Source: Clostridiales bacterium (GTDB taxonomy: Bacteria > Bacillota > Clostridia > Lachnospirales > Lachnospiraceae). From it: a DNA stretch of 41,032 nt. Positions 30,326 through 32,544 of this stretch are shown here, one piece after another. The DNA lies in contig JAJQAA010000030.1 in assembly GCA_021204045.1 (NCBI GenBank), positions 1-41,032 on the forward strand, in the 5' to 3' direction. Below the pieces are notes generated by a model. It saw only the letters and a list, made by a program, of their open reading frames with translations. It ran no database searches and was not told where the DNA came from. Numbering within the stretch: the stretch's first letter is position 1; every line of letters begins with the position of its first letter. A program made the translations under genes and the position numbers.

Positions 30326-30353
30326 GAAATCACGTAAAGAAGTTTGAAAAGTA

Positions 30354-30433
30354 CCGCGCAATTTGACAATTCACAAAAAATATTAACTTTTTTGAGAAAA
30401 AGCATTGACAAATTGCGCGGAATCTGCTAGTAT
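30354..30433 (+). promoter_or_regulatory. Strong promoter with a large inverted repeat, candidate ncRNA
   Basis: TTGACA (30405-30410), 17 bases, TAGTAT (30428-30433). CCGCGCAATTTG (30354-30365) is perfectly inverted as CAAATTGCGCGG (30409-30420); with one mismatch the arms extend to 17 bp (30354-30370 and 30404-30420). The right arm covers the -35 box and spacer. Centres of the arms are 55 bp apart. A repressor or activator site is likely; the sequence is not one I recognise. Confidence 0.75.
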
Positions 30434-30439
30434 ATACCC

Positions 30440-31027
30440 ATAAACAAGAGAGAGAACGAAATCTTCTGAAAGCAGAGAAGATAAAGAAAAAATCTAAGCA
30501 AAGGAGGTACGGACCACCGAAGACGTAAGTTAAGTTTCCTCAATCGAATGAAAAGAGGACATCCGATACATCAGACGGATGTGAAAAGAAAACCTGATAG
30601 ATAAGGTTACAAAGCAAATTCAGAAAAGAAGCTCCATAAACGGATGGAGAAAAGGTTCGATAAGAAGATCGGACGCGATTGAAGGAAACAGGGAAAACGA
30701 ATCTGCGGAGCATTCACCAGACAAAACAGAGCGAAAAGGAAACGTTATCAGCAGTGAAAGCAAGCGGTTCTGATATATGACGAGAAAGTATATGAGAACA
30801 GAGAGCAAGCGAATCCGGGTAACAAGGTAAATTCAGAGAAGATCGATCGGGACGGTGAAGGGATCAGAAGCAGAGGGGAAAATTTCATATAGAGGACGTA
30901 CAAATCTGTACGGGATAGCGTTGAAAGAATCGCTATCAGAAAAAAGGAAAAGAGAGGTGCAGTCCAGTGGACAACGAAGAGTGAGAGGGATACCAGTTGA
31001 TGGAAAATCAGTTGGTATCCTTCTCGT
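30440..31027 (+). ncRNA. Candidate large structured RNA (about 590 nt)
   Basis: A purine-rich, T-poor stretch with no supportable gene, running from a strong promoter to a 19-bp hairpin. Perfect or near-perfect hairpins, separated by A/G-rich linkers, are at 30461-30482 (ATCTTCTG), 30503-30518, 30537-30559, 30559-30582 (ACATCCG), 30591-30608 (AACCT), 30632-30649 (CTCCAT), 30655-30674 (GTTCGAT), 30767-30799 (11 bp with one mismatch), 30897-30912 (CGTAC), 30914-30937 (GATAGCG), 30962-30972 and 30983-31025. Most T bases fall in stems. Size and style resemble the large ornate RNAs (ROOL, OLE, GOLLD), but I cannot match it to a family by eye. Reading frames across it lack ribosome binding sites and family features. 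Confidence 0.6.
30983..31025. terminator. 19-bp hairpin closing the candidate ncRNA
   Basis: GAGAGGGATACCA and GTTGAT (30983-31001) pair without a break, with a few G-T pairs, to 31007-31025 around GGAAA. The T tract after it is weak (CGTTTG). Its right arm overlaps the last codons of the minus-strand radical-SAM gene, so it may mark the end of both convergent transcripts. Confidence 0.65.
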
Positions 31028-32165
31028 TTGCTGTGTTTGCAGCTGTTGCAGCAGCCTGAGGCGTCAGCCCTTCCAGGTCAAAGGGAGGGGTATATTCCTC
31101 GCGGGCGCTGCTCTTTTTTTGCATAAATCCCAGATCAAGGCCAAGGTTCAGCGCGGCATCGACGACCTTCTGGTACTCGTAGGTGGTAACGCGTCGGTTG
31201 AGCTCCGGGAAAGCGGGGTCCGTGCGGTAGGGCGTGTACTGGCTCATCAGGCTGAGGTAAAAGCTATGCGGCGGCAGCTCTGAGGCCAGCCAGCGCAGAA
31301 GCCGGATGGAATCGTCCCGGTGACCGGGCAGCACGAGATGGCGGATGATGACGCCACGGACCATGAGGTGGACGTCCTCGGAAGCCCCGGCGCTGCTGAC
31401 AGGATGATCGTTTTTGGTAGCCCCGGCGTTGTTGACAGGATCATCATTTTTGAAAGTCCCAGCGTTGTTGACAGATGCATCATTTCCGGCGGATTCAATG
31501 TTTTCGGTGTAAGTCTGCAGCAGTGGCCTTCCGGTCTGCGCGACCATCTGCCGGATTGCCGCTGAGGCCACAGCAAAGTAGTCGTCCGCCCGCGAGAATT
31601 CCCGGGAAAGAGCAGGATCGAAATATTTTAGGTCGGGCAGCCAGATATCGACATAGTCCCGGAGTACTCGCACCGTTTCCACGCGCTCATAGCCGCCGCA
31701 GTTGTAGACGACGGGAATTGTCAGGCGGCCGCGGACAAGATCGAGGGCAGCGAGAATCCAGGGCAGATACTGAGTCGCGGTGACGAGATTGATATTGTGC
31801 GCGCCCTGACGCTGCAGGTCAAGGAAAATTGCGGCGAGATCCGGAACGGTGAGGGATTTGCCGGCCGGGGTACTGCTGATTTGGTAATTCTGGCAGAAAC
31901 GGCAGCGCAGCGTGCAGCCGGTAAAGAAGACGGTACCGCTGCCGTGGACGCCACTGATACATGGCTCTTCCCAGGGATGCAGAGCTGCCCGGGCCGCCCG
32001 GATGGAGGCGGGACAGCCGCAGAAACCGGGGAGGTCCTCACGACGTACCCCGCAAAGGCGTGGGCAGAGGCGGCAACCCTCCCGATCGGAATAGAGCGGG
32101 GCGAGCGCGGAAGCGGCCGGGGTTTTGTTTCGGTTAAGGCTTGTGGTAAAATAGTCAATATTCAT
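31008..32165 (-). CDS. Radical SAM protein, pyruvate-formate-lyase-activating-enzyme-like
   Basis: A 385-residue minus-strand protein. The radical SAM cluster motif is CTLRCRFCQNY (Cx3Cx2C) at about 83-93, preceded by a cysteine-rich N-terminus (CRLCPRLCG, FCGCP) typical of the PflA-like group of unknown substrate. Later motifs include NINLVTATQYLPWIL, YNCGGYE and RHLVLPGH. A 36-residue insert of three 12-residue repeats lies between LLQTYTENIE and VHLMVRGVIIRH, a junction that should be short. The ATG at 32165 has no good ribosome binding site, so the start is uncertain. The last codons overlap the hairpin that ends the candidate ncRNA. Confidence 0.82.
   Translation of the reverse strand: MNIDYFTTSLNRNKTPAASALAPLYSDREGCRLCPRLCGVRREDLPGFCGCPASIRAARAALHPWEEPCISGVHGSGTVFFTGCTLRCRFCQNYQISSTPAGKSLTVPDLAAIFLDLQRQGAHNINLVTATQYLPWILAALDLVRGRLTIPVVYNCGGYERVETVRVLRDYVDIWLPDLKYFDPALSREFSRADDYFAVASAAIRQMVAQTGRPLLQTYTENIESAGNDASVNNAGTFKNDDPVNNAGATKNDHPVSSAGASEDVHLMVRGVIIRHLVLPGHRDDSIRLLRWLASELPPHSFYLSLMSQYTPYRTDPAFPELNRRVTTYEYQKVVDAALNLGLDLGFMQKKSSAREEYTPPFDLEGLTPQAAATAANTANEKDTN
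31374..31481 (-). repeat. Three 36-bp tandem repeats in the radical-SAM gene
   Basis: Units at 31374-31409, 31410-31445 and 31446-31481 encode (N to C on the minus strand) DASVNNAGTFKN, DDPVNNAGATKN and DHPVSSAGASED. The frame is kept. A partial fourth unit may precede them (ESAGN). Confidence 0.92.
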
Positions 32166-32319: not shown

Positions 32320-32544
32320 CAGGAAGTAATTCCTGAAATGCTCGACAACCTTACCAATGTTGAACCTACGTTTGTGACATCGGGATTCCAATATTTGTGG
32401 GTAGATGCCAGGCCTCCCTTGAGTGGAAGGCAGAAGCTCACGTGAGGTTGCCCACCTGGCGTAAGGCTAGGCGTCAATACGTAAGACCGGCATTTTGGGA
32501 TTATGAAAGAAGAAAGCAGCGAGCAATCGCTGCTTTATCTTTTT
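32320..32544 (+). ncRNA. ssrS: Candidate 6S RNA
   Basis: A transcript of about 225 nt with its own promoter and terminator. It folds as a rod: AAATGC (32336-32341) with GCATTT, CTTAC with GTAAG, TTGA and CCTA with TAGG and TCAA, then a large asymmetric internal bubble, GCCAGG with CCTGGC, and an apical hairpin GCCTCCC-TTGAG-TGGAAGGC. A closing stem, central bubble and apical stem are the design of 6S RNA, which mimics an open promoter and binds the housekeeping RNA polymerase. The sequence fits my memory of clostridial 6S RNAs, but no alignment was made, so another rod-like small RNA is possible. Confidence 0.6.
32513..32544 (+). terminator. Terminator of the 6S-like RNA
   Basis: Perfect 10-bp stem AAAGCAGCGA with TCGCTGCTTT around GCAA, followed by ATCTTTTT. 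Confidence 0.93.

Follow-up and report, generated by a model that had tools for sequence, protein, structure and literature searches.

The stretch of DNA analysed here (the window, 41,032 nt) comes from a Lachnospiraceae bacterium with a 2.75-Mb draft genome, labelled G000. Within it lies a structured RNA for which a separate promoter is predicted, and the two neighbouring genes match flavorubredoxin-type and radical SAM activase models, both below the curated cut-offs (Table 1). The start of the RNA, near 30440, was placed by the position of the promoter. The ~590-nt structured RNA at 30405–31027 that was proposed in a preliminary description, made from the letters of the DNA, is borne out. 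A 6S RNA (RF00013, 66 bits) lies just beyond the radical SAM-like gene (32327–32505, + strand), so that two RNAs flank one gene. Inside that gene, imperfect repeats of ~45 bases were seen by eye (31390–31500, − strand).

Table 1. Predicted features of the RNA locus; positions are counted from the first base of the window
Feature	Position	Strand	Description
Predicted sigma-A promoter	30405–30433	+	TTGACA at 30405, 17-nt spacer, TG-extended −10 TAGTAT ending at 30433; 10/12 consensus match
RNA	30440–31027	+	~588 nt; both ends predicted
5′ hairpin within A/G-rich leader	30461–30482	+	Predicted fold
A unit	30490–30531	+	SD-like AAAGGAGGT 30500–30508; anti-SD-like arm CC.CC 30514–30518; CCG 30517–30519
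P stem	30534–30689	+	30534–30546 with 30676–30689; fold and both-side changes
B/E long-range helix	30702–30874	+	TCTGC 30702–30706 with GCAGA 30870–30874; possibly extended by TTCACC 30713–30718 with GGTGAA 30854–30859; cis versus trans test
P1 helix	30744–30823	+	GTTATC 30744–30749 with GGTAAC 30818–30823; closes core multiloop
L hairpin	30768–30798	+	10-pair stem (one G.G in the window), 11-nt loop TGACGAGAAAG (30778–30788)
M motif	30883–30894	+	TTTCATATAGAG; conserved in sequence
Variable 3′ hairpin	30897–30912	+	Predicted fold
Micro-ORF	30952–30984	+	SD GAGAGG 30952–30957; GTG 30967–30969, D N E E; TGA 30982–30984
Terminator-like hairpin	30983–31025	+	19 bp; overlaps the micro-ORF stop codon
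Convergent radical SAM-like gene	31008–32165	−	Weak NCBIfam matches that stay under the cut-offs; does not belong to the RNA

The RNA stretch is rich in A and G, as the preliminary description had stated: its purine fraction of 0.687 is the highest in the window for its length; in 10-base steps, other parts of the + strand reach 0.624 and the − strand 0.554 at most. The predicted folding energy is −145.9 kcal/mol, whereas shuffled sequences reach −108.7 ± 5.4 (z = −6.9) and none of 100 folds as well. Mean pairing probabilities in the predicted ensemble are 0.77 for U, 0.76 for C, 0.47 for G and 0.27 for A; thus, T is mostly found in stems, although not almost only there, as had been claimed. 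Similarly, hairpins are indeed many, but the earlier count of at least eleven was generous: the predicted fold has nine with stems of at least 4 pairs, and there are eight uninterrupted hairpins of at least 6 pairs (G–U allowed), compared with 3.05 ± 1.55 in 200 shuffles, the maximum of which is also eight. The 19-bp closing hairpin noticed earlier is present.

A DNA search of 99 genomes gave matches in 32, G000 included, the strongest of them to window positions 30488–30538. Among 20 loci (window included), those containing TATGACGAGAAAGTA were taken as the 17 full-length relatives and aligned part by part (17, 16, 15 and 17 sequences), while L013, L014 and L019 were left out as short forms. 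Two covariance models were used, R1 for the core and R2 for the 5′ unit plus its stem. At E up to 0.01 per genome, R1 matches 23 and R2 matches 91 of the 348 sampled Lachnospiraceae genomes; since E is counted per genome, a few chance matches are expected among them, and the weakest may be chance. The 28 R2 matches in 99 relatives fall into 27 of the 61 genomes within the family and 1 of the 38 in other families of the order. Furthermore, a 25-base pattern taken from the 5′ unit matched 100 stretches of the genome collection, and the titles of the 80 matches listed name Lachnospiraceae or genera placed there, or are vague (‘Clostridiaceae bacterium’, ‘uncultured bacterium’). Enterocloster, Mediterraneibacter, Acetatifactor, Merdimonas, Hungatella, Diplocloster, Anaerobutyricum, Faecalicatena and others are genera that we take to belong to Lachnospiraceae. 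Pooling of all the DNA fetched gave 135 unique loci, which were picked by the A-unit pattern, the 100 stretches having been picked by a stricter one. In the viral contigs scanned, the sole exact A-unit match is L194 (IMGVR_UViG_3300037485_001818, 1566–1583, − strand). In two short family members, L057 and L073, the terminator seems to be followed immediately by a group II intron, as judged by an Rfam match at the edge of L057 and by eye in L073.

Homologues across Lachnospiraceae, for which the preliminary description proposed to search, are therefore available, and they display compensatory changes in the L hairpin, the B/E helix, P1, the P stem and the terminator. In P1, the P stem and the terminator, bases change on both sides of pairs. 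In the A3 fold, 7 of 15 pairs have such both-side changes, every one in the P stem, which encloses extra hairpins in the window genome and a short loop in most of the first 17 relatives. The L hairpin was analysed in 51 sequences, 43 of them distinct (54 usable segments, 52 after removal of near-duplicates, 51 without L142, a terminator). Here 94.0% of cells are paired, 7 of 10 pairs have both-side changes, and the covariation score is 0.573; shuffles score 0.250 ± 0.019, and sliding gives 0.182 or less. Moreover, in 35 loci outside the discovery set, the inner 8 pairs comprise 280 cells, 264 of which are paired. The 11-nt L loop is invariant in the L-hairpin loci, which were selected for containing it. 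It is also found in 19 of the 22 loci that R1 brought in besides the window, R1 itself containing the loop, and it caps other stems in L057, L087, L072 and L142.

The B/E helix links the stretch after the P stem to the stretch before motif M. The best helix within a locus scores 15.9 on average, as compared with 12.7 between different loci (p = 1e-9), in 48 loci that remained from 51 after two without M and one without B were dropped. Stretches that had been picked wrongly, such as those of L119 and L186, were retained, and the cis median is attained by 20.7% of the trans values. The paired sequences differ widely, being CAACAACCTTT/AAAGGTTGTTG in L096, CTCTGCAT/ATGCAGAG in L027, ACCGGC/GCCGGT in L044 and TCTGC/GCAGA in the window. 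A helix between TCTA of the A unit and TAGA of M is not supported: in 45 loci, pairing in cis does not exceed that in trans (p = 0.39). Near the A unit, the L loop is absent from 67 of the 135 loci, 7 of which have less than 900 nt downstream. Since 41 loci without the loop still have the promoter, A unit, micro-ORF and terminator, part of the family appears to do without the core. With the L loop, relatives are 329–774 nt long (median about 515; 44 loci), and without it 195–682 nt (41 loci); the A unit is common to both forms, and the micro-ORF is found in nearly all. In L053, L076, L084, L090 and L092, short elements of the GTAC or GTAACGGAAAATTAC type were seen by eye to follow one another in rows between the A unit and the micro-ORF.

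At gathering scores, Rfam models match only 6S RNA and a tRNA in the whole window. At E up to 10, region 30330–31110 has nine matches (microRNA, snoRNA and the like), all far under the gathering scores and taken as chance, none of which is to ROOL, GOLLD, OLE or raiA, and 20 relatives searched at E up to 0.1 have only a group II intron. Hence, the comparison with these four models that had been suggested earlier found no match in the window or in the 20 relatives, and the idea of a divergent member of ROOL, GOLLD or OLE gains no support from covariance models. The broader proposal of the preliminary description, a large ornate RNA possibly of a new class, agrees with the lack of any Rfam 15 match above chance and with homologues bearing compensatory changes. 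By the tests run, this is a large structured Lachnospiraceae RNA family that is absent from Rfam 15 and distinct from ROOL, GOLLD, OLE and raiA. Literature searches at the level of titles and abstract openings found neither a published description of it nor such a translation-linked architecture in print. PMC8040213 reports 3161 gut candidates in supplementary tables, among which an earlier unnamed listing of this RNA is possible.

The strong promoter noticed earlier is well supported when the family is considered. In the window by itself it is not above chance (1 found, compared with a mean of 1.1 in shuffles), but 112 of the 129 loci with 260 nt of upstream sequence score 11–12 of 12, as do only 5 of 645 shuffles. 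Such near-consensus promoters suggest high RNA abundance. The radical SAM-like gene is the convergent neighbour in 39 of the 135 loci, and other loci have a MATE pump, lysC-like, asnA-like, ABC and other neighbours in several orientations (clustered, and named by reading their sequences). The varied neighbours, together with the promoters, argue that the RNA is a separate, probably abundant transcript. The frequent lysC-like (9 loci) and asnA-like (13 loci) neighbours are both aspartate enzymes and codon 2 of the micro-ORF is mostly Asp, which is probably a chance coincidence.

The most conserved element of the family, the A unit, reads TCTAAG-N-AAAGGAGGTACGGACCACCG, its conservation being partly imposed since the loci were picked by its pattern. 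It is a Shine–Dalgarno (SD) sequence without a start codon: nine bases after GGAGG, where the start codon would stand, is CCN (CCG in the window). Translation of the A unit in the CCG frame was rejected by reading, the start codon being absent and in-frame stops present. The median energy of the A-unit SD with the 16S tail is −13.9 kcal/mol (145 units), a strength partly imposed by a pattern that includes GG.GG, whereas controls give −8.1 at the first ATGs of ORFs longer than 250 aa (375) and −3.9 at random places (270). This median is unchanged in loci found by BLAST (20 units) or by the R2 covariance model (32 units). The tail sequence used is an assumed one, and an exact search of the G000 draft genome for it gave no match. 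RNAalifold pairs GG.GG with CC.CC, that is, the SD with an anti-SD-like arm; both arms are present and invariant in 15 aligned sequences, with one mismatch inside, and because the pairs never vary, covariation is silent on this hairpin. The strict pattern finds one A unit in 129 of 135 loci and two or three in tandem in the other six (L073, L077, L082, L143, L147 and L190), while a lenient pattern finds tandem units in 12 of 135. The A unit and the micro-ORF region share GAGGTAC-RRN-CCA.

According to the preliminary description, the transcript was free of genes on either strand. This no longer holds for its 3′ end, where a five-codon ORF with its own ribosome-binding site (RBS), GTG GAC AAC GAA GAG TGA (MDNEE, 30967–30984), is conserved in the family. 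The layout before the terminator consists of an SD, a start codon, a few codons (usually five) and a stop touching the stem. Scanning from the terminator, this micro-ORF was found at 102 of 119 unique terminators (135 loci less 11 without a terminator found and 5 repeated sequences), compared with 6.2% in base shuffles. Among the 17 misses, L003, L016, L052, L065 and L083 have a micro-ORF and the scan took another hairpin; in L019, L027, L127 and L185 the micro-ORF reaches into the stem; the five codons of L093 lack a recognised SD, and L097 has fourteen codons; and six loci (L071, L073, L085, L113, L137 and L190) have no micro-ORF even by reading. Exactly five codons are present in 82 of 104 ORFs, and the SD-to-start distance is 9–10 nt in 74 of 99 measured cases. 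The start codons (ATG 71, TTG 27, GTG 6) and stop codons (TAA 45, TGA 33, TAG 26) come from related members and are not independent events. In the context CCM-NNN-GAY, found in 83 of 119, the free triplet is always ATG (56), TTG (22) or GTG (5). Interchange of the three start codons, and of the three stop codons, would be preserved by translation rather than by RNA structure, and the conservation of SD, start and stop through such exchange points to a translated micro-ORF. Codon 2 is Asp in 83 of the 103 ORFs with both codons used (GAC 53, GAT 30), and codons 3–5 vary between groups, charge included. The peptides include MDSIV (16/103), MDEIV (9/103) and MDEIA (8/103), counts that are inflated by relatedness.

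A conserved protein reading frame, which the preliminary description had regarded as an argument against an RNA, is partly realised by the micro-ORF; no long conserved frame was seen, and an ORF beginning in the L loop (ATG ACG AGA AAG TAT) was rejected, its length being 4–53 codons over 51 members and its median SD energy (−3.4) like that of random places. In the window (30962–30972) and in the family, although not in all members, the micro-ORF start codon lies within the palindrome TCCANTGGA, which could let two RNAs pair. As judged by comparison of the relatives, we are almost certainly dealing with a structured RNA family that has this micro-ORF as a component.

As for candidate partners, CsrA (PF02599) has no match in G000; 60 of 99 genomes have one, and of the 28 genomes matched by R2, 15 have none. 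Hfq (PF17209) was found in none of the 61 family genomes (G000–G060, G000 included) and in 22 of the 38 elsewhere in the order. Since neither was found in G000, a hub for CsrA or Hfq is unlikely, and both a CsrA sponge and the Hfq hub suggested by the AG-rich leader were rejected. Ribosomal protein bS21 was found in 55 of 61 genomes searched, G000 included, and not in G024 (weak R2 match, genome 74% complete); being near universal, its presence says little.

According to PMC12054373, OLE RNA contains a duplex mimic of the SD and anti-SD (ASD) that is bound by bS21, and conserved G–C pairs are needed. This precedent, together with an SD, spacing and start codon that fit the ribosome, leads us to favour, tentatively and with slightly less than even confidence, a trans-acting, sigma-A-driven RNA that would engage the translation-initiation machinery as a titrator or sensor of initiation. 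The A unit, as an SD/anti-SD duplex mimic, would hold part of the 30S platform, either bS21 or the anti-SD itself, and the core would act as a scaffold. A ribosome initiating at the micro-ORF would end its short run against the terminator hairpin, so that the RNA would carry a ribosome at its 3′ end, and the making, stability or binding state of the RNA would follow the free initiation capacity of the cell. The A hairpin, if formed, would hide the SD from the 16S tail; this argues for a partner that binds the duplex and against a simple 30S sponge. More doubtful is the complete form of this proposal, namely, a new class of abundant ribosome-engaging RNA in Hfq-less Lachnospiraceae, in which the 5′ mimic captures bS21 or the 30S subunit, the five-codon ORF parks a ribosome at the terminator, and the RNA measures and buffers initiation capacity. 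Such a role is otherwise held by hibernation proteins.

Several other explanations have to be weighed against engagement of the initiation machinery. The RBS-like units might be decoys for a repressor of mRNAs that acts at their SD, either some protein or C-rich seed sRNAs, with the micro-ORF as one more unit that is translatable by chance. Tandem units and the spacer sequence common to the A unit and the micro-ORF region are consistent with such a target mimic or sponge, but most loci have a single A unit, the strict choice of start codon (83/83) speaks for real translation, and CsrA and Hfq were not found in G000; we consider this explanation rather unlikely. It is distinctly improbable that the product is the peptide, with the RNA serving to deliver a formylated acidic pentapeptide (MDSIV, MDEIV, MDEIA) that acts in signalling or regulation: the prevalence of Asp at codon 2 would fit, but codons 3–5 vary between groups, five residues need no 500-nt scaffold, and GAY also fits the palindrome around the start codon. 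The ornate core, conserved loop and long-range helix would suit an OLE-like ribozyme or RNP scaffold, in which the micro-ORF would only protect the 3′ end or tune termination. However, given the many loci without the L loop, 41 of them otherwise complete, some members do without the core, and such a role seems quite improbable.

A cis-acting element, be it a leader or attenuator of a gene next to it or an antisense RNA that restrains the convergent radical SAM-like gene, could explain why the stop codon abuts the terminator, as in attenuation, and why that gene is convergent in 39 of 135 loci; yet neighbours and their orientation change between groups, which makes this very improbable. Finally, size and style recall the known large RNAs, but the low-scoring Rfam matches include none to ROOL, GOLLD, OLE or raiA and the relatives matched only a group II intron, so that one of these families diverged beyond recognition would be an extremely improbable source.

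A large RNA unrecognised by Rfam 15 is thus widespread in one family of common gut bacteria, and since Hfq was found in none of the family genomes searched, it provides a handle on how these bacteria run RNA regulation. If the favoured proposal is true, an RNA that unites an SD–ASD mimic with a five-codon ORF joined to its terminator would link ornate RNAs to translation initiation, a link newly reported for OLE.

Among known systems, sponge RNAs of the CsrB/RsmZ type have many hairpins with repeated G-rich motifs, features shared by the RNA described here, but CsrA was not found in G000. RNAIII and SR1 are dual-function structured regulatory RNAs with an ORF; the likeness lies in the union of structured RNA and ORF, whereas here the ORF has five codons, stands at the extreme 3′ end and is joined to the terminator. 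Lambda bar and similar toxic minigenes consist of an RBS plus a few codons, as does the micro-ORF, which is however carried on a conserved large scaffold and is not known to be toxic. ROOL and GOLLD are likewise large and ornate, but their models do not match, and the exact-pattern scan of viral contigs gave a single match for the present RNA; both are reported to form homo-oligomers. The closest parallel is with OLE (~600 nt, Bacillota), with which size, ornate fold and Gram-positive hosts are shared. OLE is found in an isoprenoid operon, whereas no isoprenoid gene is present among the two neighbours in the window; there is no covariance-model match, and the micro-ORF is present in the RNA described here. 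The A unit may resemble the hairpin by which OLE imitates the SD/anti-SD duplex and is bound by bS21 (PMC12054373), binding by the A unit being putative. The two differ in their canonical arm, which, going by that report, is the ASD (CCUCCU) in OLE and is the SD (GGAGG) here.
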